Shown piece after piece: positions 1-40,854 of a DNA stretch of 64,000 nucleotides. Under the pieces are notes generated by a model. It saw only the letters and a list, made by a program, of their open reading frames with translations, was not told the origin of the DNA and made no database searches. Location of the stretch: positions 1-64,000 of the IMG/VR virus record IMGVR_UViG_3300030419_005344. One strand, 5' to 3'. Every line of letters begins with the position of its first letter. Position 1 is the first letter of the stretch. The translations under genes were made by a program, and so were the position numbers. Origin of the DNA: a virus.

Positions 1-820
1 CTTCAAGAGACAAGTTGTTATTGGAAACAAGCCGCAATCTGGAACCCTTCTTCACTGACAAGCCTCTGGGCATGCGCCCGGTGGGGGTTAGGTTGATTGT
101 TATAAAAGGCTTGGGGTTCTCAATTACGATATGTTCACAAGTAAAGTCGTCTTTACTCTGGATATCCCATAGTAAAAATCCCTTGTCGTTTGTCTCACCA
201 AAGTTCTGTTGAACAGTGGAGCCCGGATACCTTACCCGACCCTCGTCATCAAGGATCTGGTTTGTTTTATGAATGTCTCCAAGGAACACATAATCGTGCC
301 CCTCGAACACAGTAATCGGATGGTCGCCATGAGTCATCACCCAGCCTGTATCGGTCTTCACGCCGGACACAGAGCCGTGATATAGCGCAATGTTGATGCG
401 TTTGTTACTTGACGGCTTCACCCAGTTTTCTTCATCGAACACTGAAAGAACATTAAAAGCGATATTGCCGTTTACAATTGTTTCGCCGGCGTTCTTTAAC
501 AGGTTTAGATTTGGATGTCGTAGTGCATTGACTATAGGAGTCACCGCATCTTGCCTATTGTCATTCTTAAGATTACCGTCATGGTTTCCAAGAATAAGAT
601 AAGTTGGTGCGATGTCAGCAAGGTTCTTAAGGAACGATGTTGCTAAGTCAAAATACTCTGGTGATAGTTGAGTTTTTGTATGGGCTAAGTCGCCACAGTG
701 TACAATATAATCAACCTTCTCTTCTCTCAATCTATCATAAATGGATTCAAAAATCTCTCGATATTCTTTATGATAGTTATAGTTGCGGATATGCGTGTCC
801 GCGATGTGTGCAATCTTCAA
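1..820 (-). CDS. 47: SbcD/Mre11-like exonuclease subunit (T4 gp47-like), 3' end outside window
   Basis: The reading frame is open to the window edge, so about 273 N-terminal residues are visible. Calcineurin-like phosphoesterase motifs appear in order: IADTHI near the N-terminus, HCGDLAH, LGNHD, a YHG stretch and GHDYVFLGDIHK. This is the metal-binding pattern of SbcD and T4 gp47, the nuclease partner of the SbcC/gp46 ATPase in recombination and DNA end processing. I chose the TTG at 820 because a GGGGG ribosome site lies six bases upstream; an in-frame GTG at 832 has no ribosome site. A consensus-like promoter lies directly upstream, so the gene can start its own transcript. A gp46-like partner would be expected just outside the window, but this is inference. 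Confidence 0.9.
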   Translation of the reverse strand, partial: MKIAHIADTHIRNYNYHKEYREIFESIYDRLREEKVDYIVHCGDLAHTKTQLSPEYFDLATSFLKNLADIAPTYLILGNHDGNLKNDNRQDAVTPIVNALRHPNLNLLKNAGETIVNGNIAFNVLSVFDEENWVKPSSNKRINIALYHGSVSGVKTDTGWVMTHGDHPITVFEGHDYVFLGDIHKTNQILDDEGRVRYPGSTVQQNFGETNDKGFLLWDIQSKDDFTCEHIVIENPKPFITINLTPTGRMPRGLSVKKGSRLRLVSNNNLSLE

Positions 821-846
821 GTTTACCCCCACTTGAATATACTATT

Positions 847-878: not shown

Positions 879-1379
879 TTATTTTTTAACAGTTGTTTTG
901 TCAAACTTACTGGCCAGAAAGGCCTGCAACTCTTTAGTAATATTGTAATCGCCAATAGGACCACTCTTGTCCGCGATTAATTTTGGCAATACTTTTAGAA
1001 AAGCCGCCTCCACTTGGTCGTCTACAATTTTTGAAACATTGTCATCAACATTTAGCTTATCTAATCCAGACTGTGTTTTAAAGCTGTCGTCCGCCTTGTA
1101 CAAGCTTTTAAGCAAATCGCGCATGTCTTTAGAATTTTCCACTACATCAACGACAGCTTGACCAAGAGGTCCAAGCATGCTGCCAATATACTTAAATGCT
1201 TGCTTGGCAGCAACACCACCTTTTCTTTTTAGTTCCACAGCTTTAAGAAGCTTTTTAAGGTCTTCAAAAGTTTCTACACCAATCGGGCCGGTTTCGCCAG
1301 CCTCCTTAGCTTGTTTTCTGGCTTCTTCTTCCCACCCTTCGTTAAGGTAGTTGCGCCAGTTTTCAAGCAAGAGTTTCAT
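879..1379 (-). CDS. Small protein with NWRNYLNE N-terminal tag
   Basis: A 166-residue protein of unknown function. It begins MKLLLENWRNYLNEGWEEEA, a short amphipathic N-terminus unlike the MKITK tag of its five upstream neighbours but similar in length and position. The L-N-E-G step matches the L/I-x-E then A/G cleavage rule of T4 prohead protease, so this may be a removable targeting peptide (inference). The rest is Lys- and Asp-rich and probably mostly helical, with one apolar Gly-containing stretch (IGSMLGPLGQAVVDVV) in the middle. Its ATG overlaps the upstream stop as ATGA, so it is translationally coupled and last in the small-gene array. No known domain was recognised. Confidence 0.75.
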   Translation of the reverse strand: MKLLLENWRNYLNEGWEEEARKQAKEAGETGPIGVETFEDLKKLLKAVELKRKGGVAAKQAFKYIGSMLGPLGQAVVDVVENSKDMRDLLKSLYKADDSFKTQSGLDKLNVDDNVSKIVDDQVEAAFLKVLPKLIADKSGPIGDYNITKELQAFLASKFDKTTVKK

Positions 1380-1687
1380 TTAATATCGTCTTCGTCCCTG
1401 TAGCCCATACCACGACGGGCGCCTGCTGCGCCTATTAGCGTAAGAGCGGCAGGAGCTAACAATTCCTTGCCCATCTTCATGCTAGCTTGAGCGATTAACT
1501 TAAGCGCCTCTATGGTTTCTGGGTCGAGCATTGAGGCCAGCATAGCTGGGTCGTCCTCGTTTAGCTCCTGCTCCTCAAGTTGAGCTTGAACTTCCTCGCC
1601 GAACATTTCGCCGGCCTCTTCATTGGTAAGGGTTACTTCTAACTCTTCCTTGATAATCTGCTTTAGTTGTGCTTTTGTGATTTTCAT
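1376..1687 (-). CDS. MKITK-tagged small protein 1
   Basis: A 103-residue acidic protein of unknown function. The first 16 residues are MKITKAQLKQIIKEEL, the shared tag of this five-gene array. After the tag comes a Glu/Gln-rich linker, then an Ala/Leu-rich helical segment around residues 60-88 (ASMKMGKELLAPAALTLIGA) that could be membrane-associated, then a charged tail ending DEDDIK. It overlaps both neighbours by four bases, so translation is coupled. The apolar segment and the tag suggest a virion-delivered or membrane-interacting protein, but nothing identifies a function. Confidence 0.75.
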   Translation of the reverse strand: MKITKAQLKQIIKEELEVTLTNEEAGEMFGEEVQAQLEEQELNEDDPAMLASMLDPETIEALKLIAQASMKMGKELLAPAALTLIGAAGARRGMGYRDEDDIK

Positions 1688-2430
1688 TTGCTTCTCCCTG
1701 CCTTGCTGGCCTCTACAGCACCAAGCTGAGCGAGTGCAGCTTTCTTCGTTTTATGTGGCTTTTTAGATAGTCGGCGACCGGACTTTGAAGTGACATAGTA
1801 ACCATTATCAACCTTTTCTATTTTCTCGTGAACAACTACTTCTGTTTGTGCTAAATCTCTAATCTTATCCAAATCGCGCTCTATGAGTGCGCGGTCCTCT
1901 TTTCCTAGGTGCAAGATGTTGGAGGATATGCTATTGGTCAGACCAAAAATCTCGTCCATTGCGTCTTCTTCCATGCCCTCTGCTTTAATGCAGTTGCGGT
2001 AAGTCTTGCCGTACATTGTCTTTGTCTTACGAGTTGGGTGAGTCTTATAGCCTTTCTGACATCGCTCGTCCAATTCTTCTTCTTGCATCACCTCACCAGA
2101 AACAAGGAAGTAGTCTCTGGCTTTGTTAAGATAGTCGGCAGCAATGGTCACTTTACTCATCCACCAAGAAGGCAAGTCGCCGTGATGTGTCTGGAGGCCC
2201 TGTAGAATCTCTGACGCGTCCTCAATAGAAGTCTTCAGTTTTCTTACTGCCGAAGATGTATCTTCGTGGCCGTCCTCTTTCAAGGTAGCATCGTACTCTT
2301 CCAAAAGAATTTTCTTAAGAGTTGTAAGCTTATACTTGTTAGCAACCCGGGCAGGGTTTTTAACACCATAAACATACTCGGAGGCTGTCTCGCGAATAAT
2401 ATCTTCTAGTTGCTTCTTGGAGAGCTTCAC
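1684..2430 (-). CDS. MKITK-tagged protein 2 with CxxGYxT/GKxYxNC motif
   Basis: A 248-residue protein, the longest of the tagged set. The tag is the most diverged copy (MKLSKKQLEDIIRETASEYV). It uses a GTG start inside a GTGA overlap with the upstream stop. Two segments look constrained: LPSWWMSKVTIAADYLNKAR near residue 85, and a Cys pair spaced by basic residues near 125-150 (CQKGYKTH, then GKTYRNCIKAEG), which might bind a metal or nucleic acid. The C-terminus is Lys/Arg-rich (SKSGRRLSKKPHKTKKAALA), suggesting DNA binding. I do not recognise the family; the assignment to the tag group rests on the N-terminus and gene position. Confidence 0.75.
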   Translation of the reverse strand: MKLSKKQLEDIIRETASEYVYGVKNPARVANKYKLTTLKKILLEEYDATLKEDGHEDTSSAVRKLKTSIEDASEILQGLQTHHGDLPSWWMSKVTIAADYLNKARDYFLVSGEVMQEEELDERCQKGYKTHPTRKTKTMYGKTYRNCIKAEGMEEDAMDEIFGLTNSISSNILHLGKEDRALIERDLDKIRDLAQTEVVVHEKIEKVDNGYYVTSKSGRRLSKKPHKTKKAALAQLGAVEASKAGRSK

Positions 2431-2696
2431 TCTTGCTCCTCCAAGTAATCAGCAAGTATGCGAGCAGCTAGTGATACCTGTGTTAGAAACTCTCTTGGGA
2501 GCCCGTCAGCAGACGCAGCACCATACAAAGCCTTTAGTGTGGCAAAGTGGTCGTGACCCGGTGCGTCAGGAGTCTGCGGGGTTGTAAGCGTCGGAAATCC
2601 TGAACCTCCAGATGTGGCCATCGGAATGCGACCCGAAGCCTCACTGGCTAGTTCTTCTTTAATAATTTCTTTTAATCTGCCTTTGGTAATTTTCAT
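2427..2696 (-). CDS. MKITK-tagged small protein 3
   Basis: An 89-residue protein of unknown function. It starts MKITKGRLKEIIKEELASEA and continues with a Gly/Ser/Thr/Pro-rich low-complexity stretch (about residues 22-48), then a predicted helical C-terminal half (FLTQVSLAARILADYLEEQE). Both ends abut or overlap tagged neighbours, so it belongs to the same transcript. After the tag it shares no obvious sequence with the others, which is what makes the tag stand out. Confidence 0.75.
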   Translation of the reverse strand: MKITKGRLKEIIKEELASEASGRIPMATSGGSGFPTLTTPQTPDAPGHDHFATLKALYGAASADGLPREFLTQVSLAARILADYLEEQE

Positions 2697-2698
2697 CG

Positions 2699-3151
2699 TT
2701 ATCGTTTCCTGAAGCGTCCGCCGCGCATGCCCAAGTTTAGATCAATCTTGTCTCCACCTTCAAGGAAACCGGGAAGGGCCATAGCAAACGCTCTTGAAGA
2801 ACTGCCGCCACCCGCTACAAAATCATCAAGTGCGCGGACGACTTCAGCCTCATCCTTTTCAAGCGCTCGACGAAGTTGACTGCTGCCGCTCCCGCCTGCG
2901 CCTCCGGCGATTTGAAGATTGTTAGAAACGGCTTTGGCCTCCGGACCCTCACTGTGGCGGGCGACTGCCTTAGCAAACTCTGGGTATTCAATCGCGAGTT
3001 GAGCGGTCTCGGCTAGACCGGGGCTAAACATGCTTAAAAGCTTCATAGCCGCGTTCTTCATGAAGCTCTCTTGCATTGGGGCCTCTTCTTCCATAGTTGC
3101 TTCAAGCTCTTCCTTGATGATTTGCTTGAGTTGTGTTTTAGTTAGTTTCAT
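2699..3151 (-). CDS. MKITK-tagged protein 4
   Basis: About 150 residues. The frame is open further upstream, but I chose the ATG at 3151. It puts the tag (MKLTKTQLKQIIKEELEATM) at the N-terminus as in its neighbours, has an AGGAAG ribosome site about nine bases upstream, and avoids overlapping the preceding gene. After the tag come an acidic linker, a helical region with many Ala and Glu residues, a Gly/Ser-rich segment (IAGGAGGSGSSQLRRALEKD) and a basic end (GMRGGRFRKR). Function unknown. The basic Gly/Arg tail could contact nucleic acid. Confidence 0.75.
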   Translation of the reverse strand: MKLTKTQLKQIIKEELEATMEEEAPMQESFMKNAAMKLLSMFSPGLAETAQLAIEYPEFAKAVARHSEGPEAKAVSNNLQIAGGAGGSGSSQLRRALEKDEAEVVRALDDFVAGGGSSSRAFAMALPGFLEGGDKIDLNLGMRGGRFRKR

Positions 3152-3155
3152 AGTT

Positions 3156-3353
3156 TTATCTTCCTGCCTCAATCGACATGATCATTTCTTTAAGCACTTT
3201 CACAACATATGCATCACCGCGCAACTCTTGTAAATCAAGCACCGCGTTGACAAGATTGTCTTCGCTCTCCGACTCTGCGGCGCTACGGTACATGTAGTTC
3301 TCTTCAAGCTCTTCCTTGATGAGGTTTTTTAACTGTGTTTTTGTAATTTTCAT
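3156..3353 (-). CDS. MKITK-tagged small protein 5 (first of the array)
   Basis: A 65-residue acidic protein starting MKITKTQLKNLIKEELEENY. The remainder is a Ser/Glu-rich stretch followed by a predicted helix (LVNAVLDLQELRGDAYVVKV). It is the first tagged gene to be transcribed, 12 bases after the primase stop. A copy of the recurrent ACTATTTATT element sits 35 bases upstream inside the primase 3' end, so the array may have its own late promoter there. Function unknown. Confidence 0.7.
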   Translation of the reverse strand: MKITKTQLKNLIKEELEENYMYRSAAESESEDNLVNAVLDLQELRGDAYVVKVLKEMIMSIEAGR

Positions 3354-3365
3354 TTATCAGGTTCC

Positions 3366-4295
3366 TTAAATGGCAAAAAGCCTTTGCAATAAATAGTTAT
3401 CTTTTTCCACAATCGCCGCATTGTCTTTACGGCTTTGGAAGTCTTCTTTAGACATATCTCCAACATCCTCAACGCCAGATGTATCAACTTCATAAACTTC
3501 TACTCCGTATCTTTGCAATAAGCGAATGATGGAGCGCGTTTTCTTGGATGCATCTTCATCCAAAGCCAGATACACCCTGTTGCCATTTTTAACAATGGCT
3601 TGAAAAAGAGCAGAACCCTCGCGCAGCGTTGATCCAAGAAGAGGAATACCATTACCAGCCTTTATCGCGTCGAAAACACCTTCCACTATAACTAGGTCTT
3701 CGTCCCAATTTACATACAATTCGTTAAAGATAATGTCGCGAGAAGCCGGAGGGTTCTTGTACTTGGGCCACTCAAAGCCGTATGAGCGCGCCACATAATA
3801 ATTAGCATACCCATTCTCGTTGAAGGAAGGGATAACCACACGGCCTGCATACTCTCCATCCTTGCAGAAGCCTATTTTCCACTTAAGGATATCGTCCTTG
3901 GCGACCCCACGCTCTGTAAGGTACCGCAGGGCAGGCCACGAGCCCGCAGGAGGCGTCCTAGACGCTAGGCTAACGAACCCCTCGGGTAAATCGATGCGCT
4001 GCTCTACGGGGGCGTCAGGCTCTGCAAACAGGAAATCAAAGTCGGTAATCTCAACTCGGTCATCATACTTGGACCACTCATCCCGTTGCTCGCGTGTCCC
4101 AAACTTACGGACAAGGTAGCCTAGGTCTCGACCTGACTTGTCACAAATCCAACACTTGAATACAGACTTGTCCACATTCACAGACATCTTCATCTTGTGA
4201 TGATTACAGAATGGACAACGAAAAAGCTGCTCATGACCGGACTGATAAGACCTGCCAAGAACAGCTTTTATTATTTTGAGTTTTTCGCCTCGCAT
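3366..4295 (-). CDS. DNA primase, zinc finger plus Toprim domain
   Basis: A 309-residue primase. The N-terminus carries a four-cysteine zinc finger (FRCPFCNHHK at about 25-34, then FKCWICDKSG at about 46-55) that contacts template DNA in DnaG-type enzymes. The middle holds a Toprim fold, with the acidic EG motif in DLVIVEGVFDAI near residue 200 and the DxD-like motif in VYLALDEDA near residue 240, where Mg2+ is bound. It would make RNA primers for lagging-strand synthesis. It overlaps the 3' end of the RuvC-like gene by 25 bases, with GGGGGT four bases before its ATG. The helicase that would load it is not in the window. Confidence 0.88.
   Translation of the reverse strand: MRGEKLKIIKAVLGRSYQSGHEQLFRCPFCNHHKMKMSVNVDKSVFKCWICDKSGRDLGYLVRKFGTREQRDEWSKYDDRVEITDFDFLFAEPDAPVEQRIDLPEGFVSLASRTPPAGSWPALRYLTERGVAKDDILKWKIGFCKDGEYAGRVVIPSFNENGYANYYVARSYGFEWPKYKNPPASRDIIFNELYVNWDEDLVIVEGVFDAIKAGNGIPLLGSTLREGSALFQAIVKNGNRVYLALDEDASKKTRSIIRLLQRYGVEVYEVDTSGVEDVGDMSKEDFQSRKDNAAIVEKDNYLLQRLFAI
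3388..3397 (-). promoter_or_regulatory. Recurrent ACTATTTATT element (before tagged gene array)
   Basis: Minus-strand ACTATTTATT (AATAAATAGT on plus) lies in the last codons of the primase gene, 35 bases before the first tagged gene. Exact copies occur at 8180, 14341 and 28550, with a variant at 28084, each shortly before a gene. A late-promoter -10-like element read by the gp55-like sigma is one explanation. The short distances leave the role open. Confidence 0.4.
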
Positions 4296-4798
4296 ATGAC
4301 CCCCGCTTTTGCAATCACAATCGAGTCTGCTTTGTCGTATGACTCGGGCTTTGGATTGCCGTTACGAGTATAATCTATCACGAAACTAGGCTCGTTGTCA
4401 AGTAAAAATTTTAGGACAACCTGTTTAGCCTTTTGCCCCCTCGGTATTTTGATGCCACAAAGTTTTCGGGCAGACGTAGCCGCGATGTATTCTGGCTTGA
4501 GTTTATACTTATCAAAAACCAACCAAGAGACGATGCCATTAAAACGAGAGAGAGTGGAGAGAGTTTTTGCCGAAGAGAAGCCGGACCTGAATGACTGGAG
4601 CGACTGCTCAATATAGACTGCTTTAATTTCTTTGCCATACTCTTTCCTTATTATATCTAATCCTTCTTGAACGTGTATAACCTTTTCAAAAAAGTCTTTG
4701 TATTTTCTTGTGTCCCAAGCACCATTAAGAACTATTTTGTCTCCGTCAATAAGAGTATAGCCCGTGATGCTTGTGGATATGTCTAATCCTAATATCAT
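4271..4798 (-). CDS. RuvC-like Holliday junction resolvase
   Basis: A 175-residue RNase H-fold nuclease. The first acidic residue sits in ILGLDISTSITGY (D6), the second in AVYIEQSLQSF near residue 70, and the C-terminal acidic pair in YDKADSIVIA near residue 155. This is the spacing expected for RuvC-like enzymes, which resolve four-way junctions before packaging. Classical T4 uses endonuclease VII (gp49) instead. The ATG at 4798 has no recognisable ribosome site. A TTGACA/TATAAT-like promoter ends only a few bases upstream, so the mRNA may be leaderless. The gene overlaps the primase, suggesting joint expression. Confidence 0.82.
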   Translation of the reverse strand: MILGLDISTSITGYTLIDGDKIVLNGAWDTRKYKDFFEKVIHVQEGLDIIRKEYGKEIKAVYIEQSLQSFRSGFSSAKTLSTLSRFNGIVSWLVFDKYKLKPEYIAATSARKLCGIKIPRGQKAKQVVLKFLLDNEPSFVIDYTRNGNPKPESYDKADSIVIAKAGVICEAKNSK

Positions 4799-14357: not shown

Positions 14358-15404
14358 TTAATAATCAGGACAATCTTCATCCAATGCATCAGAGGCGTAT
14401 ATTGGTTCTACTATAACATCGCTGAGGTCCGGACAATTTAGATTAATATCAGTAAACAAACTCTTTCCTTTTCTCGCCAACTTGGAAACAGATTTACATA
14501 TAATTGTCTCGCTTATTTCTGAGTCTACATTTATATCGAAGTAATAAGAAACAAAGGTTGGGTCGAGGGCCGGAGTGGCGCCGTTAATGCGACCTGCTTT
14601 GACTTCAGCCTCTTCTTTGTCAAGCAAGATATTGTTTTCTACCATCTCAAGAGGTTTGACGAAATTAAGAGGAACTTTAATCTGCTCTCCGTTTACGTCA
14701 AATTCATCGGTTATTTCATACACTTCAATGTCAAAATTGTGAAAATCAAAAGGAGCGTTGATTTCCTCAGCCACAATAATAATTTGTTCAGGGCCCACCA
14801 AGACCTCATTACCATCGGAGTATAAAGTGCCGGGTGTCAACGCAGGATCAACCTCAAAGCGTTTTTCGGGCGTATTCGGCGGCGCTACAGTTATTTTGTA
14901 TTCGACATCCATCTCAATCTGTGGTATCTTAAGGAGCTGATGAGACAGAGCACTAGATGCGGCACCTGTTTTGGTGGCGCGAACGCTCCCGGTCGAGTTA
15001 AATTCAAGGTCTTTAATCTCGCCTTCCAAGAACTGCATTCGAATGGCTGGAGTCTTGGTGGAGTCTAGGGCTGATGTGCCTAGCGAGAATGGCATAACGG
15101 TCATTTTTTCGTATGTGCTTAATCTTATTCTATCGGCGATGTCTCCTACACCGTCAAACAAGTATTCATCCCTGCCGCTAAAAATGCCTTGAGATCTTAG
15201 CAGCGGCGTCTCATCTTGAATCCTGCCCTCGGCGTCATTCTTGCTTTCAGTTGAACTAGAATCACCATATTTCGGGTCATAAAGAACGTTATCATCCATA
15301 AAAGAATAGAATGTTGGCTTAAGCAGCCCTTTTGATAACAAGTGACGACCATAGTTTGTAAGTTTTATATCCAAAACTTCCTCTTTAGGATTAAAGAATT
15401 TCAT
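14358..15404 (-). CDS. Virion protein with LDxxLTxxGR N-terminal motif (second copy)
   Basis: A 348-residue probable structural protein. It begins MKFFNPKEEVLDIKLTNYGR then HLLSKG, which shares the LD-x2-LT-x2-GR-x2-L-x2-G pattern with the 311-residue protein at 7219-8154. Downstream it is acidic and beta-rich, with FYSFMDDNVLYDPKYGD following the motif and an acidic C-terminus (ALDEDCPDY). The ATG lies in a TAATG overlap with the stop of the 3,109-residue gene, with a GGAGATGATGA ribosome site. The shared N-terminus suggests both proteins dock on the same kind of partner. No enzyme function seen. Confidence 0.75.
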   Translation of the reverse strand: MKFFNPKEEVLDIKLTNYGRHLLSKGLLKPTFYSFMDDNVLYDPKYGDSSSTESKNDAEGRIQDETPLLRSQGIFSGRDEYLFDGVGDIADRIRLSTYEKMTVMPFSLGTSALDSTKTPAIRMQFLEGEIKDLEFNSTGSVRATKTGAASSALSHQLLKIPQIEMDVEYKITVAPPNTPEKRFEVDPALTPGTLYSDGNEVLVGPEQIIIVAEEINAPFDFHNFDIEVYEITDEFDVNGEQIKVPLNFVKPLEMVENNILLDKEEAEVKAGRINGATPALDPTFVSYYFDINVDSEISETIICKSVSKLARKGKSLFTDINLNCPDLSDVIVEPIYASDALDEDCPDY

Positions 15405-18400
15405 TATTCATCATCTCCTATGTTGACATCAATTGGGCGCCTTTCTTTTCCCTTAAGTCTCTCGGAAAGCTCCACATTAGCTGCATCACGTTTCTTTTTC
15501 TTGATTAACAGATTCTTCTTTGTAGGTGTAAAAGAAACCTCTGCGTCAATAGAGGCAAGCTCCACCATTGAGAAAAAGTCATAAGGCCAGTTATATGTAT
15601 AGAGGGGGATTTCAGCCTCTTGTTCACTGCCTATTTGCTTATAATAGTTGCCGGGTGCTCGCTGCTTAACTTTAAACACCATCCATTGAAGTTCTTGAGG
15701 TAACTCTGCGTCCGGGACAGGCTTATCATCTAAGACTGCCTCCGTAACCTCGCCAAAGGAAAAATCGAGAAGTTCATTCTTAACTAACTTATGACGAACA
15801 GTAGCCAAAGCAGGCTCTGCTATCGTGCCCAATTTTGGAGGCAAGTTTTGCCATATGTGTGACAAATCATTTTTTGTAAACTTGTGAGCAAACTCAAAAA
15901 CATACATGGCAACTGCGTCTACCTCGTTGTTAACAAAGTCAAAAGTAGGAGGGAAAACATATTTGTTTAACATCTTTTCAAGGCGAAGAATGCTTTTACT
16001 GTCTTTGGCCACTGCCGCCGGAGTTGTTCCAAAACGAGGGTCGGTACCGGATATTTTAAGGAATCTTCTTTCGCCTTCAACCTCAACAAATGGCACGGCC
16101 ACAATAGCCTCAAAAACTTTTTTAATGTTAGGAAGTTCTCCCACTCGGACCGGCTCTGTCGAAAACCCACACACATCGACCAACGACAAAGGAGCGTTGG
16201 TGGTCTTGATGCTTTCCACTGAGGCCGCGGTGCCGATGGTCATATTTTGTGGTAACCTGTATCCAGTTAGAGCTTTGTTGATATTAGAACGTTCTGTCGT
16301 GTTTGTGGTTGGGAATCCTTCTGCAAGATCAACCTTTACGGCATTACTAACATCGAACATACCACCAACGTCGAAAGCGACACTAGCGGACGGATGGTTG
16401 TTAATAAAGTCAGTGGGAATATCTGTTACTTGTATGTACACGCCCTGATCTGATTTGGGAATTCTACCAAATTGGTGCCACATTCCATATGGTATTAGGT
16501 CGTTTGTTGCACTGGTGGCGGCGGTGCCGGTGTAGGTCGTTATATCGTCTTCTGTTAAGTAGCCAAAATCAAGCATTGGGGTTTCAAATTTAGTCTGAAT
16601 TCTCCACTTGGTGTCGTTCTTAAGTGCTGAGGTGTCTTCTGGATTGATAAGTTTGCTGAATATGTTTAAGGATGCGTCAAGTTGCATCGCCCATTGGTTA
16701 GCCCATGGGCCGCCCATAGGGCCAACACCCGAGCCGAGCGAAATATTATGATATGTTGAACCTTGTATCCCCTTTAGGGCCTCTTGGTCAAATCTCCAGC
16801 GCACAACATAAGTCCCTTCCCCTCCGATTCTTGAGTCATTTTTGTTGGAGGAACCAGCCAACATTGCTGAGCCGGATGGAAATTCTGTGATTGCTAGCGA
16901 ATGCAGGTCATCAATTCTAATAACTCTGGTTGCGTTGGTGTCCGCCAACAATCCTCCGGCGCCGGCATCGAATGATTTATATGGATAATAAATTAAATCA
17001 ATCCAACTTTCACCATCATAATAGGGGGGTGTATGAGACATATATCTCCCGACTGCTGGCGAAGCTTCGAAGGCTCCTGTCATTGCGATAGTCGTCTGGT
17101 CGGCGGCGCCTGTTGCACAAACCACAGGTGGACCAAAGGCGGAGGGCCTATTATACATTGAGAAATTTGATCTTGAACCCGAGGTGTATTGTGGCAATTT
17201 AAAGTCACCCCAATCGCCCTTGGTAGCCACTACCGTGTCGGTTGCGTATGTTCTATACATTTTGATTCTCAGCCCGTAGGGTTGACCCGGAGTAACTGGC
17301 TTAAAGTCCACTTGTGGTGCAGATACAATCTCGGCTGGCTTTCCGCCTTTAATAAAGAATTCAAGCGACGATGCCAAGAAGTTATGAACCATATTCGTGT
17401 ATCTTTTTGATGAAAGGTTCCGGGCCCATGAGGCTGTCGAGGCTATTCGGCAAAACGATGAGGGCTCATCATCAATTATGTTCTTGCCATAGATGTATTT
17501 TGTTGGCTCCAAAAGAGATTCAAATGGGACTCTGTAGTCCCAAGCGCCATTGTGACTGATAAACTCCCCGGCTGTTTGGTCACCATAGCCGCTGGCTGAG
17601 GCTGTGCTAGAATTGGAGAAGATGCCCGCAGAAGCCAGCGTTTGTTGTGCCGCTGAAGAAAAATTTAATATGTTTTTAAATTCAACTGAGCCTGTCATTA
17701 CTGGGTAGTCAACAGCGACGCCTGATTTAATTGTATTATACATGATACCGGGCGCAAAAAACGGCTTTAGTATGGTCCTGAACGCGATATCTTCCGTGCC
17801 TGTTAAGAAGGTGTTTGGACCTATAGACGCGGAAAATTCTTGAGCTATTTGTATGGTTCTTTCAGCCGGATAGAAGCCATCATAAGGGACAAACTTTTTA
17901 ATTGCCTTGCAGCGTAGTTTAATCGAGTCAGGCTTAAGAATCCCCCCTTCTTTGCCAGCGTCATCTCGCACAACTTCAAAATATTTCATAAAATCAGAAT
18001 TAGTAAATATTTTGAAGAAATTCTCTTCACTACTATTTTGCGGTAGAGAAGAGTTGGCAGGCGTTCCTGCTATTGACAAAAACTTGGTGTTTTCAGTTAA
18101 GAAGTCGCCACCATTATCATCATAAAAATCGATATGCTCACTAATTCTAAATTCAGGAATTATCGAGCGACCTCCTGCCGTGGGTTTGATGTCGGCAAAA
18201 AACTTATCGTAATCGTCGTAAAAAGGCTTAGCTTCTGTTTTAACAAAAACACTAGAGGTGCCTTCATACTTACCTGCCAATGTTGGAGCATCCCAGAAGG
18301 CTTCGCCGCGGCCAATGGATGCTACGGCTATAATATGGTCCCCGATGGCCCCGAGGCTGCCCCCCCCGGCGGCCGTTACAGTTCTAAATTTCTCGCCATA

Positions 18401-21400
18401 ACCAACGACGGATCCCGTGAAGGGCATAACATGCTTTCTAGAATACAGTATGCCAGATCTTAAATTAGATTCTGGGGCTGTGTGTGCAAATTGTGTATAT
18501 ATGTTTTGAAGCTGTCCGGGCTTGTAGTTAGCGCCATTGTTGGCGACGTACCCTCCAGTTATCGCGTTAAGGAAACCCGCACCAATAACGGTTGTTTCGA
18601 ACCCATCCAAGGCCCATGCACTTTGGTTTACAGCTAGGCCCATGCTACTTGTTGGCTTCTTGGATTCCCCCTTCGTTGTTCTATCAGCACGAGTGTCGCG
18701 CCAGAAATTGTTTTCATAACCTGTTCTACCGCGAACCTTTTCTGTGTATGCAAAATCTTGCGGAGGGTAAACAGTCTCACGATACTGTAGCTTGTTGATT
18801 TGCAAGATAGGCTGTTCTTCATCTAGCAGACCATCATACATGCTAAAGTTGTTAATTATCTGCTTGTAGCTTGTTCTGGCTGTTGCTTGTTTTAAACGCC
18901 GTTCATCAACAACATTGTTTTTAAACTCAATATTGTCAAACGTAACTACATCATTAACAAACGGCACCCTAACAACTACATCTGTTGATTTTAATGTTTT
19001 GCTGTTTTGCTGATCGTTTCTTATTTCTAAATTATAAACAACCGGATAATATCTGTCAGATACGACAGATTGCGTTGTTAAGAGGGTTGTTCTGTCGCCA
19101 CTTTGTTTAAAAGAGGTTCCAGCATCATTAAGAGTGTCTGTTTGATTAGCAAGCCTATCTATCGTATGAGTGTAAAGGTTACTTTTACGGTAGTGTCTTG
19201 CTAGCTGCGATTGGCCGACGCGAACTTGTTTCCAAGTTGGATAATTATAGGGACCGTTTCTATAGTGTATGATACCATTTAGAGCGCCGGCGTTTGTAGC
19301 ATTATTGTTTGTCATATTTTGAATAAATGAGTTATTGTTTGCTACAGCCACAGCGAGGTGTCCGATATCACCATAATTAATATAATTCTTTATATCATCT
19401 GTTAAGGCAAACCCCATTTGTTGGGTCTCGACATTAAATTTATCAATAATGTTTGTGTTCATGCCAACAAAATTATTTGGTACAAAAGAGCCAGCATCAT
19501 AAGAACCGTTTTTTTGCCGTATCTGTCTGGTTGTGCTAATCCCGGAGCCGTTTTCGCTTGCACTTTGAAAATTAACTGCCGACACATATCTAAATCCAAC
19601 GGAACTTGACTCTCTTGCCAGCCCATCATACGGGAAGTAGCCGTACACATTGTTGGCGGCACCAAGGGCAGCGTTAAATCTATCGGTTGAGGCAGTGACC
19701 CAAGAATACTGGAAATCAGATTGTGGAATCATGTGCTGAACAAAGTAATTGTCAAATACCGCTCCTGTTACAGGAGTTTCTTCGTTGTTGCTGTAACCCT
19801 TAAGGCGACGAAGTGGGTTTCTGTTAACTTTGTGGAAGCTAGCCGTAACATCTGTGTAGTTAAGGGCAGACGGTAAGGAGCCAGAGCGTAGGCCAAACCT
19901 CGCACTATGTTCCGTAAGAAGCGTTCTAAGAGGCGTTCTAACGGTTGTGTTTCTGTAATTTAGATTGTTGTATGGGCTTAGTTCGGCCGCTTCGTAGTCT
20001 AAACCGGGGCCACCTTGGTTATCGGCGGCTGTATCAGGGCCGCCGGGAGCAGAGAACCTACTAACAATGACGTGCTCTGTACGGCGTCTCACAGGCTTAG
20101 CGTAATCTATAAGGCCTTCAAAATAGCCTAGCGGGAGCGTGGTTACTGATGCCGTTGAGAACCCCTCATTTTTAACAAACGCAGCATTGTTTTGAGTTCT
20201 GCCTGTAGTGTTAACTATTTCGTATCTCTTATCAAAGTTGCCCATCGCAACCGTGCCAAGGGAGCCGGTTCTGTGTTTAACGTTTTTGATGTTGAGGGGG
20301 CGCTTAGCTGTTTCGTCTCTGCGGTAGTTGGGGCGCGTAGAGATGCCGTTTATAAGCCCAGAATCGGCAGCAAGAAAAACAGTACGGTTCGTTGGCGAAA
20401 AGAGGCCATAAGCTTCGGGACGGGTCGAGCGTGTATCTGACCCTTCGTTCAAATCTGTGTGCCTATGCCTATTGCCCCCAACATGTTGGTTGGTAAACGG
20501 CCCCTGCATTGGGACTTCGTAGTCATCACCGTAAGAATCATTATGATAGCCCGAGAATTCCATACCTGTTTCGGCATCGGGACCACTCGTGCCGGCGCCG
20601 CCAAGAGCAGACTGCCAGTTTTGCCCAAACCCATCTGCCGGAGATACAGAAGAACTATATGCTACAAAGGGGGTCAAATACTTAGTGCCCGCTACATCAT
20701 CACCAGCGTTGGAAATATTGTCACTATAAACGCCCGGTACCGACCTCTTATGCTGCTTTATAGTTGGCCGGAGTTCTTCGCTCGACGCGTCTGGAGTGGC
20801 AAGCTTTGCAACGCGAAGGCTTTCACTGCTAACAGAACTTTTTGGTATGACTGCAAAAACACCATCCGGTTTGTGGCCTCTTGGGTAGTTGTACCCACCG
20901 CCGATGTCAGGAACAACCCCCACAGATAGCTTAGATTGCCTTGTGAAGCGTCTTGTGGCGTAAGTGGACCCTTCGTATACCCCAGAGGCTCCGGCGCCGT
21001 CATTGAGCGAGTCAGCGCTTGCAGAGTTGAATAGCTGGATGATGGTGAGGATGTCTTGTCTTGCTGTGTCGATGAGCGCGGGCGTATCAAAAGCTGTGTT
21101 GCTTCTTTCTGCTCGCTCTTTCCACCAAGTAGAATGTTCAGTTTGAGAGTTTGTTATAGGCGCGTGACCAAACTGCCAGTTGTACTCTAGTTCTCTAATG
21201 CCCTTGACTCTGCCTTCTAACTTGGCCTCGTCGCCACCAAAGCGGTCGTTGCCCTTGTAGTCTAGTTGTGGGTACTTGTGCTGGTATTTGGAGCGGTTAA
21301 GAACATAATCTTCAACCACAGTGCGAATCTCGTCGGAAACATCGGCAGAAGCAGGAACAAACTGCTGTAGGAAAATGTTAAGCGAGGAATCAATCCACTT

Positions 21401-24744: not shown

Positions 24745-26271
24745 TTATTCAACTTTAAACTTGAAGATTTCTGGCTGCTCAACCCAACTTCCAATGTCCT
24801 CGTTATAAAATGCCAATTTTATTCCGTGCATGTATCCGCGTTCGAACAGTCCCATATCTAAATCAAAGTAAGAGCCGGAAACATCATATGACATAAACGT
24901 GTAGTACGGTGTACTGCCCGTTCCATGCGGTATGACTTTGAGTTCGTCGATAATTCTAAAGACTTCAAATGAGCCACTTTCTACTACCTCAACTTCCGGC
25001 GTGCTTACTGCCTTAGTGTAAATAGTTGGTGTCCAATCTTTTTGGCGGCTATAAACCCTAAAACGTGCTGTCTCGTCTGGACGATACTTTTGACGCAGAT
25101 TGGTTATAGAGACAAAGTATTCATTGGCTGGGGCATTGTACATGTTTTTTAGAACTTTTGGCTCAATAGAGCCAGTGCCATACTGCACCCCTGTGCTCGC
25201 ATCGGCAACCGAGTTGTCTAGTTTGAACCACACGTCGTTAACAGCCGGAAGCGGCGTAGATGCTGCGGTCATAGCAAACGAGGCTGAGTATATGCCCTTG
25301 GAAACGTGGCCGCCTGTTACGGCAAATACGCCCGTTGATAGAACATGTGTGCCGTCTGCCACAAGCCGAATTGCTGAACCGTTCGGGGAACCTGCACTCG
25401 ATGAGAATATACTAACTCCAATGTTGCCTGTCCCAACGTCAGGTATGTTGCGGAGGCGTCCTCTAAAGTAATTGTAAAAATAGATAGTGTTTAAGTTTTC
25501 TGCTGCTGTAGCTAGTGAGCTACTGTAAAAGAAATTTCCTCTATCATCCTCAATTGAGGAATCCCACCGAGCCTCGATATTTGGCCTCTTGTAGAAAAAC
25601 TCTGTGCCTCTTGCAAAAAACTTCTTAGTGTAGTAAGAACGTGATGCGCTAGAATATTCACTCGATAAGAATACTCCAACCCCTTCGTCTTCTTTTTGTC
25701 CAAGGTTGGAGGAGGACAGCCACTGCTCAACAAGCGGAGTGATGTTTAGTTCAATATCCTCTGTTCCTCCATCAAAGGAAGCTGTGAAAGAAGAGGAGAT
25801 GTCGGAAAAGTAATCACCACCGGTAGAGGCCCATGCGTGGTCGCCGGCCGAGCGGGAAGCAATTCTGTTAACCCAGTTGGATGCGCCTATATCTTTGTAG
25901 CCTTCCATATCAAGGCCTGTGCCCTCCGTCCAGCCTCCTGATACAGCAGAAACATCCATCGTGTAAGACTTGGGAAGTGTTTGGCTGTGTGGTGCGTTGT
26001 AAAGTCTTAAGTAAAAATCAACACTACCGCTAGCAGGAATGACACCAGCGTCCCTGTCCGCCTTAATAGAGTTGGTGGATGCTGTACAATCAAACTTAAT
26101 AAGAAATCTGGATTCTTCCGCAGATGACGAGTTTGCCTGTCCAAAAATAGAAAATACTTCGAGGATATCGGATGCCCCCATGTTGGAACCAGTTCCACGA
26201 GTTTCAAGATTTTCTTTGAAAGCATTCGTTATAGTATTGTCTTTCTTAGCATAGTATCTCTTGATAGCCAT
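24745..26271 (-). CDS. Virion protein with DNRLRE-like region
   Basis: A 508-residue probable structural protein. It begins MAIKRYYAKKDNTITNAFKE, then GSNMGASDILEVFSI. Residues from about 55 to 235 resemble a DNRLRE/CBM-type beta-sandwich: SVDFYLRLYNAP, then SGGWTEGTG, SNWVNR, and the closing pattern DIELNITPLVEQWLSS typical of that domain (inference from pattern only). The C-terminus is Tyr/Phe-rich and ends FKFKVE. It starts in a TAATG overlap with the stop of the gp6-like gene, so it is coupled to baseplate assembly. It may be a fibre or decoration protein. Confidence 0.72.
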   Translation of the reverse strand: MAIKRYYAKKDNTITNAFKENLETRGTGSNMGASDILEVFSIFGQANSSSAEESRFLIKFDCTASTNSIKADRDAGVIPASGSVDFYLRLYNAPHSQTLPKSYTMDVSAVSGGWTEGTGLDMEGYKDIGASNWVNRIASRSAGDHAWASTGGDYFSDISSSFTASFDGGTEDIELNITPLVEQWLSSSNLGQKEDEGVGVFLSSEYSSASRSYYTKKFFARGTEFFYKRPNIEARWDSSIEDDRGNFFYSSSLATAAENLNTIYFYNYFRGRLRNIPDVGTGNIGVSIFSSSAGSPNGSAIRLVADGTHVLSTGVFAVTGGHVSKGIYSASFAMTAASTPLPAVNDVWFKLDNSVADASTGVQYGTGSIEPKVLKNMYNAPANEYFVSITNLRQKYRPDETARFRVYSRQKDWTPTIYTKAVSTPEVEVVESGSFEVFRIIDELKVIPHGTGSTPYYTFMSYDVSGSYFDLDMGLFERGYMHGIKLAFYNEDIGSWVEQPEIFKFKVE

Positions 26272-28067
26272 TACTTAACAGTTCCTTTAATATCAATTAG
26301 CGGAAACTTAATCTCCAAGATAACATTGTCTGGCACCGACAAATACCGTCCGTCAAGCGACATATATTGTTCTATATTGAGACTAGAAGAGGAGTAGTCG
26401 CCACCTGTCTTGCTGACTAGACTAACTCTAGATGTGTCCACAACTCCTCGGACCTTGTTCAGTGCTGTATATACGTCGGTAACATAAAATCTTTCACCAA
26501 TAAACATAGAAGCCGCGAATCTTTCCCTTAGGGCACGGATGCATGAATCTAGAACTTCAAATCTGTTGACCTCTTCGCTAGATACCACTTCAAAGTCGAT
26601 GCCTATATTCACTATTTTAGCGTCTAGGATATCAACAGTGTCATTGATCATGCGATAACGATTTAGGTGAACTTTTAAGTTTTCTTTTAGTGCGTTGTTG
26701 GATTGAGCCAATTTGCCAAAAGAATCCTCAGAAACAATGTAAATATTTAGATTTCTTTTTAGTGAGTCTTGGTCCTTGATCACACGGGCCCGCTTTACAT
26801 CTCCAAACTTAGCTGGCATCATGTAAGTTAAAGCTTCATAATCTTGTGATGTAACGGCCCTGTTTTGGCTAGCAAAGGCGTTCATGGCCTGTAGTCTAAT
26901 TTCTTCTCTTGAAGGCAACGAATTAGAGCCTACTAATGGCTCCTCGTTGTAGCACTCAATACTTGATATAACCTGAGTTGCTTGAGAAGTTGTAGCGATT
27001 GTTGGGTCGTTGAACTCAAATATCGGATTAATAATTCTAGTAATGGAACCGACAGCGGCGTTTGTGTTGAGGGAGGTGTTTCTTCTTTTGGTTATGGTCA
27101 GAGTAGTGTTGGCAGGGCCAATGCCTAATTTATCATTGCCGACTAGGTTAGAGGGATCAAAGGAAGCATCCGTAGTGTAATCCTTGGCTGCTCTTTGTAA
27201 AACAACATTAGCTGGGTCTGCAACTGTCTGTGTGCCAGTTTCAGTATCAGAGCCGTGGCCAAATGTTAAAGTTACCCCATTTGAGTCGTAGTCAACAACA
27301 AATCTTCTAGCAGTCACAAAAGGCCTCATAAGAGATGGGGCATTTTGTCTTGTGTTCTCATCGCGGTTTGGTACTGACTTATACACCACGTCTTGTGTTA
27401 AATGTTCTACTTGGAAATACTCATGGCCCTCGGAATCAAAAACGCTGACTATCTCTACCAAGCTAGAGTCGTTTAGCCTAACTTTTTTAAACTTTTCAAA
27501 TGCGCCAACAGTAACTGATTCCGTATCGAACACACCAGAAATTACTTGCCCCTCTGCTTTAATAGCATAGCTCGTAGGATTTCCTGTTGTTGCATCTGTG
27601 TTAGCAGCAACAACATCATTTGAGGGGTCATCAAAGCGAACGTCCTCGGTTAGAATAAATGAAGCTCCGTCTGTAGAGCTTAATACTGTATTAGACTTTA
27701 ATATAGGCATAAATCTGGTATCTGGACCGAGACCTGTTGAGTTGGCCGGCACTATCGCGTACATAGAAACAACACCAGTGGTTGATGTCGAGCCTCTAAA
27801 CTTATAACCCATTTGAGAAGCTAGTCTGATTATTGTATCATAATCCGTGGCCGTATCAATAAAGGACTCGTTAACTTGATAGTCCAAATAAAAAGACATG
27901 ATATCGCCAACATAAGCAACTGTGTCAATCATGAGAGAACCAAAAGAAGCTTCACTAAAATCTTTTAATGTATTAGGGTAGTATCTTTTAGCATAGTTAA
28001 CCAAGTCCTCTCGTATGGACTGGAAATCTCTGCTTGTGTATTTAATAGGTACGTTTCGTCTGGCCAT
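26271..28067 (-). CDS. 6: Baseplate wedge protein, gp6/baseplate-J-like
   Basis: A 598-residue protein. The N-terminus (IKYTSRDFQSIREDLVNYAK, then FSEASFGSLMIDTVAYVGD and YQVNESFIDTA) is the hallmark of T4 gp6 and baseplate J proteins, which form the wedge ring that opens on contraction. The C-terminal half has the expected repeats: SREEIRLQAMNAFASQNRAV and TSQDYEALTYMMPAKFGDVK. It follows a gp25-like gene, the same order as in many contractile-tail phages. A GGAG site lies nine bases before the ATG, and a variant of the ACTATTTATT element lies 17 bases upstream. Typical length for the family is about 600 residues. Confidence 0.9.
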   Translation of the reverse strand: MARRNVPIKYTSRDFQSIREDLVNYAKRYYPNTLKDFSEASFGSLMIDTVAYVGDIMSFYLDYQVNESFIDTATDYDTIIRLASQMGYKFRGSTSTTGVVSMYAIVPANSTGLGPDTRFMPILKSNTVLSSTDGASFILTEDVRFDDPSNDVVAANTDATTGNPTSYAIKAEGQVISGVFDTESVTVGAFEKFKKVRLNDSSLVEIVSVFDSEGHEYFQVEHLTQDVVYKSVPNRDENTRQNAPSLMRPFVTARRFVVDYDSNGVTLTFGHGSDTETGTQTVADPANVVLQRAAKDYTTDASFDPSNLVGNDKLGIGPANTTLTITKRRNTSLNTNAAVGSITRIINPIFEFNDPTIATTSQATQVISSIECYNEEPLVGSNSLPSREEIRLQAMNAFASQNRAVTSQDYEALTYMMPAKFGDVKRARVIKDQDSLKRNLNIYIVSEDSFGKLAQSNNALKENLKVHLNRYRMINDTVDILDAKIVNIGIDFEVVSSEEVNRFEVLDSCIRALRERFAASMFIGERFYVTDVYTALNKVRGVVDTSRVSLVSKTGGDYSSSSLNIEQYMSLDGRYLSVPDNVILEIKFPLIDIKGTVK

Positions 28068-28141: not shown

Positions 28142-28534
28142 TTATAGCGTGGTCGCAGTTGCCACGTCAACTGTTAAATCAGAAACTAAATTAGCTGCTG
28201 GGACTGAATACTTTATGGATACAATTAAGCTTGCTGCGTCTGTTTCGGACACAAACACGTTTAGTTGCAGTAAATCAATATAGGGTAAATATTTCGCAAC
28301 CTGCTTCTGTATGGCGTCCCTAACTATATCAACTGTATCGTTGGTGGCTGGCTCAAACAAAAACCGACGTATTCCGGCTCCAAATTCCGGTATCATAATT
28401 CTTTCACCCGGATTTGTTAAAATAACCATTTTTAAATTTTGAGCAGCCATAGCTGCTATATCTTTGTTGAGTGAATAAGCGCCATCAGTCGTGTTCACAT
28501 TTAGTGGCAGCGCCACAGATAATCCCTCAGCCAT
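28142..28534 (-). CDS. 25: Baseplate wedge protein, GPW/gp25 family
   Basis: A 130-residue protein, the normal size for gp25. The family core is visible: the stretch NLKMVILTNPGERIMIPEFG followed by AGIRRFLFEP, where the NPGER and P-x-FG turn are typical of gp25/GPW proteins. In T4 gp25 nucleates the sheath at the baseplate wedge and partners gp6 and gp53. The gp6-like gene follows directly. An AAGGAG ribosome site and an ACTATTTATT element both precede the start. Assignment is firm from the motif and synteny. Confidence 0.92.
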   Translation of the reverse strand: MAEGLSVALPLNVNTTDGAYSLNKDIAAMAAQNLKMVILTNPGERIMIPEFGAGIRRFLFEPATNDTVDIVRDAIQKQVAKYLPYIDLLQLNVFVSETDAASLIVSIKYSVPAANLVSDLTVDVATATTL

Positions 28535-38269: not shown

Positions 38270-38556
38270 TACGACCCCTCCTGCTGCAACATATCAAAGA
38301 TATCAGCACGGTCGTCGTCACTCAGACCGGTGTCTCCTAGCTGCTGTTTGTGGATAAGGCCAGATACCTTGACTAGTTGCTCGTTGCTTCTCTGAAGCGT
38401 CTCAACATATTTAGCAGCCACCGAACCGACTTGGGTGTGCCGCTCCTCGTCTTTAGACAAGTAGCGCATCACGTCGTCCAGAAGCTCTCTGGTGACTTCT
38501 CTGTCGTCTTGTATGTTCTTGATGGCTGTCTCAAGGTAATGGTCCAGTTGTTTCAT
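38269..38556 (-). CDS. Small helical phage protein
   Basis: A 95-residue protein. I chose the ATG at 38556 (MKQLDHYLETAIKNI) because it overlaps the sigma stop as ATGA; a longer frame upstream lies inside the sigma gene. It is nearly all predicted helix, charged, with possible coiled-coil segments (VAAKYVETLQRSNEQLVKVS). It ends in a GTG overlap with the hub gene. A terminase small subunit or assembly factor would fit the size, but nothing in the sequence identifies it. Confidence 0.65.
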   Translation of the reverse strand: MKQLDHYLETAIKNIQDDREVTRELLDDVMRYLSKDEERHTQVGSVAAKYVETLQRSNEQLVKVSGLIHKQQLGDTGLSDDDRADIFDMLQQEGS

Positions 38557-39257
38557 AACTCGCCCTTGTCCCACTTCTTCCTAAACACCGCATATTTAAC
38601 TCGCATTTTGTTTAGGTTGTTTACCACCTGCTTTGTGTTCAAGCCGGTTATCTCTCTCATGTATAAATAAATAGCTTTCTTATTAAAAATTTCTATATCT
38701 TCGGCACTTTCAAAGAGAATCCGGACGGCATTTAATACCTTCTCCTCATTCTCTTTCATTTTTTCATGCTCCCAAGTATCAATCTCGTTCTTGAGAAAAT
38801 TAAAAAACTCTTCGTGCTCTCGCTGTCTGGGGTAGGGATTGGCAGTTGATAAATACTTAAGCTCAAGTTCCTTTGGTAGTTGTTCAACAATTTCAAGCTC
38901 TGTTCTACGCTTCTTGTTTTGCTTCTTGGTCTGGGCGATAAACCAGTTCTTTGTAATGACCGAAAAGTAAGAAAAGGCCTTTGCTTTCTCTGGATTGTAC
39001 TTGGGCAAAATTGTCACGAGCCAAACCTTACACTCCTCTTGTAGAGACGATATGTTTGGAAGAGTGGTAAACTTATAGGTATAAACTATCTTGTCTACCA
39101 TCTCGCTAAATACAGGACCTATAAATTCATTGTATAGATAAGACCTTTCCCGGATATCTTCCGAGGCAACATACTTAATTATAGCGTTCTCGTGCTCTTT
39201 GGTAAAATACTGCTTACCCTTTCTTCTACGTCTCTTAGGCTTCGGCATCGGCATCAT
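38553..39257 (-). CDS. 55: Late sigma factor, gp55-like
   Basis: A 234-residue protein with a sigma70 region 2-like core: LPKYNPEKAKAFSYFSVITK followed by NWFIAQTKKQNKKRRTELE, the part that contacts the -10 element and RNA polymerase. The N-terminus is very basic (PKPKRRRRKGK). It lacks the long regions of host sigma factors, as does T4 gp55, which directs late transcription with the sliding clamp. The ATG at 39257 has a GAGGAGGT ribosome site. It sits just upstream of the virion genes it would activate. The recurring ACTATTTATT element is a candidate target. Confidence 0.85.
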   Translation of the reverse strand: MMPMPKPKRRRRKGKQYFTKEHENAIIKYVASEDIRERSYLYNEFIGPVFSEMVDKIVYTYKFTTLPNISSLQEECKVWLVTILPKYNPEKAKAFSYFSVITKNWFIAQTKKQNKKRRTELEIVEQLPKELELKYLSTANPYPRQREHEEFFNFLKNEIDTWEHEKMKENEEKVLNAVRILFESAEDIEIFNKKAIYLYMREITGLNTKQVVNNLNKMRVKYAVFRKKWDKGEL

Positions 39258-39818: not shown

Positions 39819-40019
39819 TCATTCCTCCCCAGAATCCTCAAAATCTTCTCTCATTTTTACAAGAGGTGCATTCATGACCACCAAACCGTGCTCCGAGAGC
39901 CGGAACTTAAAACCCTTAAGCACAGGAACAATGTCTGATTGTTCCAGTAACGACTTTTGCAGCGCCATCATTAGGGCGCCTAGGGCTTGGTCACTTAAGT
40001 GCATATCTTTACTACTCAT
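39819..40019 (-). CDS. Small conserved-looking phage protein
   Basis: A 66-residue protein with an N-terminal helical half (LSDQALGALMMALQKSLLEQ) and a C-terminal strand-like segment (GLVVMNAPLVK), ending in acidic residues. An AAGGAG site lies before the ATG. The stop of the sugar dehydrogenase gene overlaps its start by eight bases, so this gene physically links the glycan island to the phage late genes. Function unknown. Confidence 0.65.
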   Translation of the reverse strand: MSSKDMHLSDQALGALMMALQKSLLEQSDIVPVLKGFKFRLSEHGLVVMNAPLVKMREDFEDSGEE

Positions 40020-40854
40020 TTTTATCTCCTTTTGTTACGGCTCCTTCTATTTTGAGCCAGTCTTTTTCTTCTCTAACTTCTAAGTTTTTTTGCCACGCTG
40101 CCTGTAGCATTGTTGGCTTTATGTTGTTTGTATGGCAGTAATACATTAACGCATTTAAGTCTTTTGCAAAACATTTTCCACCAAAGCCATGATACCCATC
40201 AGGGCCCGGGACTTTAAGATGGCTTCGGCCTATTCTGCTATCTAATAAAGCCAAAGCTGTAACAGTGTCATAATCTGCCCCGATAGCGTTGCAAATTTGC
40301 TTCATTTCGTTAGCAAAAGACACCTTAGTGGCTAGAAAGGTGTTAATGTAATACTTAACTATTTCGGCTGTTTCCCAATCTGTTGTTTCATATTGCTTAT
40401 CAGGTAACATCCAGCGCATCATGTCAACGCACTTTTGTGTATCGTTTTCTTGCCCACCAAATATCACGCGATTACACAACCTAAAGTCTTCTACCGAATT
40501 TGCCTCGGTTAAGAACTCTGGGCTGAACACTATCCTCATCTCTGGGTGTCGTTCGTTAATCACCCTACACGTCCCGGGCACGACGGTTGATTTTAAAATT
40601 ACCAAATTATTATTGTAACTTTGGTTAATTTTGTCCATAACATCAAAAACAATAGACAAATCAGGGTGACCATCCAAGTGCATAGGGGTGGGTACAGCGA
40701 CAAAAACATATTCACACTGTTCAGTGATATCCGAGATAGCTTTACAGTCTGTGAGTTCAGGGTTAGTGTCATACCGTAGTGTTTTGTAAGTAAATCTTAT
40801 ATTTTGATATATGGCGTTTCCTACAAAACCATTTCCAATTATGCCTACTTTCAT
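40012..40854 (-). CDS. UDP-glucose/GDP-mannose dehydrogenase family, short form
   Basis: A 280-residue oxidoreductase. It has the NAD-binding GNGFVG (7-12), the central helical domain with SPEFLTEANSVEDF (E117), K177 in FLATKVSF, and the catalytic cysteine in GFGGKCFAKD (C228). These are the residues that oxidise a sugar 6-OH to a uronic acid in two steps. Family members are usually 390-450 residues. This one stops right after the central domain and lacks the C-terminal sugar-nucleotide-binding domain, so activity or substrate may differ. The downstream overlap shows co-transcription with phage genes. Likely product: a UDP- or GDP-uronic acid (inference). Confidence 0.82.
   Translation of the reverse strand: MKVGIIGNGFVGNAIYQNIRFTYKTLRYDTNPELTDCKAISDITEQCEYVFVAVPTPMHLDGHPDLSIVFDVMDKINQSYNNNLVILKSTVVPGTCRVINERHPEMRIVFSPEFLTEANSVEDFRLCNRVIFGGQENDTQKCVDMMRWMLPDKQYETTDWETAEIVKYYINTFLATKVSFANEMKQICNAIGADYDTVTALALLDSRIGRSHLKVPGPDGYHGFGGKCFAKDLNALMYYCHTNNIKPTMLQAAWQKNLEVREEKDWLKIEGAVTKGDKNE

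Follow-up and report, generated by a model that had tools for sequence, protein, structure and literature searches.

The tagged gene array

Neighbouring genes whose products begin with the same short peptide but show no recognisable similarity beyond it raise the question of what that peptide is for. We addressed this question in a stretch of viral DNA of 64,000 nucleotides (the window). The window, part of a 69,711-base virus record, is one fragment of a marine myovirus related to phage T4. Among the open reading frames of the window, five neighbouring minus-strand genes at 1376-3353 encode the common N-terminus MK(I/L)(T/S)KxQLKxII(K/R)E(E)L, which we call the T1 tag. The next gene downstream of them, at 879-1379, has a tag that differs from theirs (MKLLLENWRNYLNE) and belongs to a second type, T2 (ENWRKYLxE); a third type, T3 (RxDPRYFMDE), occurs in related phages. 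The array is flanked by a RuvC-primase pair on one side and by a gp46/47-like nuclease running off the contig on the other. The features of the window are listed below.

2..832, minus strand: gp46/47 (SbcCD)-like nuclease, N-terminal part, truncated at the contig end; downstream flank of the tagged array
879..1379, minus strand: T2-tagged protein, 166 aa; MKLLLENWRNYLNE followed by GWEEEA...; tag codons 1338-1379
1376..1687, minus strand: T1-tagged protein, 103 aa; MKITKAQLKQIIKE followed by ELEVTLTNEEAGEMFGEE...; tag codons 1640-1687
1684..2430, minus strand: divergent T1-tagged protein, 248 aa; GTG start; MKLSKKQLEDIIRE followed by TASEYV...; tag codons 2383-2430
2427..2696, minus strand: T1-tagged protein, 89 aa; MKITKGRLKEIIKE followed by ELASEA...; tag codons 2649-2696
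2699..3151, minus strand: T1-tagged protein, 150 aa; ATG at 3151; MKLTKTQLKQIIKE followed by ELEATMEEEA...; tag codons 3104-3151
3156..3353, minus strand: T1-tagged protein, 65 aa; MKITKTQLKNLIKE followed by ELEEN...; tag codons 3306-3353
3366..4295, minus strand: DNA primase (DnaG/gp61-like; phrog_47, E 4.8e-39); upstream flank of the tagged array
4271..4798, minus strand: RuvC-like Holliday junction resolvase (phrog_827, E 7.5e-10)
26271..28067, minus strand: T4 gp6-like baseplate wedge protein (phrog_219)
28142..28534, minus strand: T4 gp25-like baseplate wedge protein (phrog_261/phrog_43)
38553..39257, minus strand: T4 gp55-like late sigma factor (phrog_234, E 1.6e-5)

A profile built from residues 2-16 of about 300 tagged proteins gave the five T1 genes, from 3156-3353 to 1376-1687, scores of 44, 50, 40, 16.6 and 50 bits, the next best score among the 59 genes of the window being -32 bits; it is important to consider that this comparison is partly circular, as the window proteins belong to the training set, although the gap is decisive. 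Beyond residue 22, no two of the five T1 cargos matched each other by BLAST better than E = 3. Both results agree with an earlier note on this DNA, which had described five consecutive genes with a common N-terminal tag and complete divergence after it. What did not hold was the uniformity of that five-member family: the 1684-2430 product is a divergent member with 6-8 of the 16 tag residues in common, retaining I-x-E at residues 12-14, and the adjacent 879-1379 carries another tag. Nor did the tag prove to be amphipathic, as had been claimed, since the hydrophobic moment of T1 is 0.27 and the shuffle mean 0.23. The exact tag DNA pattern was observed three times in the window against zero expected by chance, and third codon positions often differ between the five T1 genes where the tag residues are identical, which indicates that the peptide is what is kept.

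Comparison of the window cargos with Pfam and PHROG assigned no function to them, the C-terminal part of the 1684-2430 product matching phrog_3684. A full-length search of phage records with this 248-aa protein gave weak cyanophage matches only, and relatives of the 150-aa protein (2699-3151) were sought in viral contigs, with none confirmed. The T2-tagged 879-1379 product has a 38% identical ortholog, T2-tagged as well, in another locus (L196). In a close relative of the window (L194), the gp46/47-like nuclease and the tagged array occur in the same order and the array occupies the same position. The L194 ortholog of 1684-2430 is 82% identical across residues 1-154 and retains I-x-E at 12-14; the cargo family of 3156-3353 (LVNAVLDxQExRGDAYxVKVLxEM) is T1-tagged there too, and residues 1-50 of the 1376-1687 product resemble an L194 T1 protein that diverges beyond them. 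Because most of the other cargos differ between L194 and the window, we conclude that tagged arrays change fast.

Elsewhere in the window, a row of nucleotide-sugar epimerase and UDP-glucose dehydrogenase genes (40012-43535) sits in a long, sugar-related-looking gene block that reaches the window end, and two very large baseplate-region proteins of 3,109 and 2,501 aa, without a PHROG match, are encoded at 15404-24733 and 28562-36067.

Distribution of the tags

The exact degenerate tag DNA was found at no fewer than 120 loci in viral contigs and in none of 84,980 bacterial and archaeal genomes, and a loose pattern gave 328 tagged ORFs among the matches listed. Among 2,441 distinct proteins from these loci and from whole stretches of related genomes, with gene starts called by a simple script, we identified 343 T1, 70 T2, and 18 T3 proteins; the search of phage proteomes for the N-terminal motif that the earlier note had proposed thus returned at least 431 tagged proteins in related phages. 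Their cargos form 343 clusters (about 340 families), 288 of them singletons, counts that depend on BLAST, which may split distant relatives. The loci were sampled by tag, and the co-occurrence rates given below describe tag-bearing contigs only.

Conservation of the T1 tag ends by residue 22. The earlier note had held that copies of the motif inside unrelated proteins would speak against a tag; in related phage proteins, 10 of 391,770 internal 16-residue windows scored above 25 bits as T1-like, and most of these start with a Met of their own and are probably missed gene starts. A tblastn search of phage records with a 22-aa consensus tag gave no match, the query probably being too short, and no paper describing the T1 tag was found in the open-access literature.

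A putative cleavage motif within the tags

All six tags of the window contain (L/I)-x-E, the motif behind which gp21, the prohead protease of T4, cleaves (PMC9026906). In a set of 256 T1 proteins in which residues 10 onward were left free, E14 is found in 97%, a figure that is somewhat inflated because each locus was fetched through one match with E14 fixed. In the same set, (I/L)xE ends at residue 14 in 94.5%, a value somewhat inflated for the same reason, and at residue 22 in 25%, the background at residues 40-80 being 1.3% per position; at position 12 of T1, I accounts for 96% and V for only 3%. As for T2, (L/I)xE ends six residues past the Trp, which corresponds to residue 14, in 47 of 101 candidates, at a background of about 1%. 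Furthermore, the gp23 of tag-bearing phages retains NQAKELLRE followed by A, S or G just before the shell domain, in the place of the FLTE-A site of T4, and for this reason an L-x-E specificity is plausible in these phages. These patterns make a tag cleavage point after residue 14 and/or about residue 22 the more likely arrangement. The earlier note had expected a cut after (L/I)-x-E at residues 16-17; the motif is there, and it ends at residue 14.

Within tagged cargo, (L/I)xE is rarer than in untagged proteins (ratio 0.77), which is what protease-exposed proteins would show, but this depletion is not specific because (V/M)xE is nearly as depleted (ratio 0.80). The idea that T2 mimics the gp23 prodomain helix (LLSKWEKTGLLEG) was rejected, as a scan with the T2 profile did not single out gp23.

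Exchange of tags between homologous cargos

Homologous cargos were found behind different tags. A T2 protein (L172:2947-3327) and a T1 protein (L075:960-1385) have cargos that are 67% identical, and the corresponding value is 38% for another T1/T2 pair (L008:4676-5431 and L030:2114-2833) and 53% for a T3/T1 pair (L056:895-1326 and L072:5458-5943). In this last pair the similarity starts at L-x-E followed by E(D/N)SPMEILG, with L-x-E in both proteins. Because homologous cargo swaps tags in this way, the tags appear to do the same job and (L/I)xE appears to be their boundary; we regard this exchange as the strongest sequence evidence for a common function and for (L/I)xE as a functional boundary. 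Where both homologs carry T1, conservation is higher in the tag (75%) than in the cargo (58%).

Association with head genes and a 24-bp element

Peptidase_S77 was detected in 20 and Gp23 in 18 of the 35 tag-bearing contigs longer than 50 kb, among the matches listed, and 13 of the 14 tag-bearing contigs of at least 100 kb encode both. The fourteenth, which is protease-negative, ends at its terminase gene; together with seven other protease-negative contigs, it carries the baseplate protein of the window at 44-79% identity. Since such contigs end at the head module or carry this baseplate protein, truncation is the simplest explanation for the missing protease genes. A tail-sheath query gave no match in the protease-negative contigs, and six of them, 51-62 kb long, were not recognised by any of the probes. 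The window itself, whose gp6-like protein has homologs of 44-79% identity in eight other tag-bearing contigs, has no S77 gene and stops short of the head module.

Tagged genes are often located within the head operon or adjacent to it. Some clusters are found immediately upstream of terminase and portal, and the slot directly after gp21 holds either type of tagged protein, T2 in some phages, T1 in others. In many cases the genes that come next are a conserved one encoding a related N-terminus (MKKSELKKLIKPLVKECIHEVLIEEG) and one that is bS21-like. Not all clusters are placed in this way, which counts against a capsid function: in one genome (G010) the tagged genes, 25 in number and the most in any genome, cluster far from the head genes. 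The T4 late promoter TATAAATA was not found upstream of tagged genes, nor was it found at core head genes. Several loci (L125, L131, L161, L177 and others) have a bS21-like ribosomal protein gene between gp21 and fibre-like genes; Bacteroidetes phages have been reported to carry bS21 genes close to their head genes, in that case on the opposite strand (PMC9723584). At about 125-139 kb of G010 (L188) there is also a large family of small proteins starting with MK(I/V)GDLV, many copies of which are adjacent; these are probably paralogs rather than bearers of a tag.

In one sublineage, tagged genes are preceded by a 24-bp sequence, ACTAAGTATGAATGGATTAGCAAC. It occurs in 58 copies in 30 loci (L033, L065, L051, L012, and 26 others), of which fewer are independent as some loci overlap on the same contig, and 54 of the 58 adjoin a T1, T2 or T3 gene. 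The shuffled consensus gave no matches, and the element is absent from the window. Because it is read in different frames or lies outside genes, it is kept as DNA or RNA, and may represent a repeat at gene boundaries or a regulatory site.

Cargo proteins

Most tagged cargo belongs to no recognised family, and small acidic proteins without recognised enzyme domains predominate. Single members match the L,D-transpeptidase, NUDIX, guanylate kinase, GNAT, protein kinase, zeta-toxin-like AAA, and pentapeptide-repeat families, domains that are compatible with a host-directed role. Some cargo, the guanylate-kinase-like proteins among it, has no obvious use inside a head, which counts against capsid targeting. 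A C-terminal motif common to cargos was seen in two cases only.

Interpretation and alternative explanations

We consider it likely that the T1 N-terminus is a capsid-targeting propeptide comparable to the capsid-targeting sequence (CTS) of T4 internal proteins and used on a far larger scale. The data suggest that the tag steers cargo into the new head and is removed by the phage's own protease. Late in infection, cargo would be docked by its tag on the core scaffold of a T4-like prohead under assembly. Cleavage behind (L/I)xE by the S77 protease of gp21 type, at residue 14, about residue 22 or both, would then release the cargo inside the head. T1, T2, and T3 would then be alternative address labels for one route, hence the exchangeability of unrelated cargo. 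More speculatively, and by analogy with T4, some cargo may leave the head together with the DNA and be injected into the host. The earlier note had already proposed T4-like capsid targeting, and the protease and gp23 in the same phages, the (L/I)xE motif, the tagged genes in head operons, and the tag exchange speak for it; the T4 aromatic residues are the part of the likeness that T1 does not have.

Special attention has to be given to other functions that the same N-terminus could serve. Docking to the head scaffold or shell might be an end in itself, for assembly or as a minor structural component, with the tag perhaps cut and the protein not delivered. The head-operon position, including the slot after gp21, and the predominance of small acidic cargo without enzyme domains would suit such proteins, but several cargos are enzymes and the very fast turnover between relatives as close as L194 and the window is better suited to arms-race cargo, so that we find this explanation unlikely. 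Binding to some other partner, such as a polymerase, a membrane, or a replication or translation complex, with (I/L)xE as part of a helix and not a cleavage site, is improbable in our judgement. Tagged arrays do often lie between replication genes (primase, gp46/47) and some cargo is nucleotide-metabolism-like; however, a mere helix would not account well for the near-invariance of I at position 12, V being so rare there, and of E14, and T1 is exchanged with T2, the bearer of the T4 CTS pattern, and associated with the protease operon.

We give hardly any credence to the remaining explanation, in which the common 5' end is a translation or DNA element (a start enhancer or a recombination hot spot) or a relic of duplication, with no role for the peptide. 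The 24-bp element before many tagged genes of one sublineage and the skewed codon use at some tag positions could be read in this way, but the tag shows synonymous codon variation both inside the window and from phage to phage, its residue conservation reaches position 16 and continues past it, and between T1-T1 homologs the tag exceeds the cargo in conservation.

Returning to the capsid-targeting propeptide, a wider proposal can be made tentatively, as a possibility that we hold with some doubt: a T4-like clade may possess a modular delivery system in which interchangeable, protease-cut head-entry tags sit on hundreds of unrelated cargos in fast-changing arrays, the 24-bp repeat may aid exchange in one sublineage, and the tag would reveal the injected set. 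If this is true, a signature of 14-22 residues would turn hundreds of unassigned phage genes into predicted virion cargo, the tagged proteins would be candidate injected effectors or anti-defence proteins, and there would be new swappable packaging tags beyond the single CTS of T4. It would also become directly testable, with an isolate in hand, whether evolution uses the CTS generally to load T4-like heads, as has been proposed (PMC9026906).

Comparison with known systems

The internal proteins of T4 have a common CTS and are divergent afterwards, with residues 4 and 7 needed for targeting and 8 and 10 for cleavage (PMC9026906, PMC3012670). Like IPI, IPII, IPIII, and Alt, whose CTS is cut by gp21, the proteins described here carry a short N-terminal peptide on otherwise divergent sequences, with an (L/I)xE motif in the tags and an S77 protease in the same genomes. 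The T2 pattern, W-x-x-(Y/F)-(L/I)-x-E, shares its register with MKTYQEFIAE of a T4 internal protein, whereas neither T1 nor T3 clearly resembles the CTS in sequence. We classify T1 outside the T4 CTS family because it lacks the aromatics at residues 4 and 7 that, with I/L at 8 and E at 10, make up the CTS pattern.

In the giant phages phiKZ and SPN3US, the N-terminal regions of head and ejection proteins are thought to target them and are cut after Glu by a gp21 homolog (PMC5694885). A targeting N-terminus and cleavage after Glu, both predicted here from sequence and context, are common ground; the propeptides of those phages, however, are mostly longer than 100 residues with S/A-x-E sites, and the tags reported here comprise 14-22 residues and have (L/I)xE as their motif.

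Tags diverged from T1 were found in two further phages. Flavobacterium phage immuto (vB_FspM_immuto_2-6A, L169), which was isolated on Flavobacterium sp. LMO8, has T1-like N-termini (MKKSQLRQIIKEALD and MKKSELVKLIKEELN), two such genes adjoining the primase, and the uncultured huge phage LR756508 has about ten T1-like N-terminal variants near its head genes. Immuto has further shared N-termini that end near (L/I)xE, such as FDLKKFLVENKLTxNSxxLxE in three proteins, and the gene directly preceding its protease gene encodes a protein with FIAEAR, as in T4 ipII, close to the N-terminus. In LR756508, an intein-like sequence, CLKKHSAQALTVDGFKYISNVEVGESIVTI, seemingly interrupts the gp21-type protease (L171:16669-18204) behind GELDHP.

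The earlier note had considered a tag-and-cargo system of this sort uncharacterised. Its kind is known from the T4 internal proteins; unlike T4, with its handful of such proteins, these phages have three tags that can replace one another, as many as 25 tagged genes in a single genome, and some 340 cargo clusters, and it is this scale, together with the tags themselves, that appears to be new.
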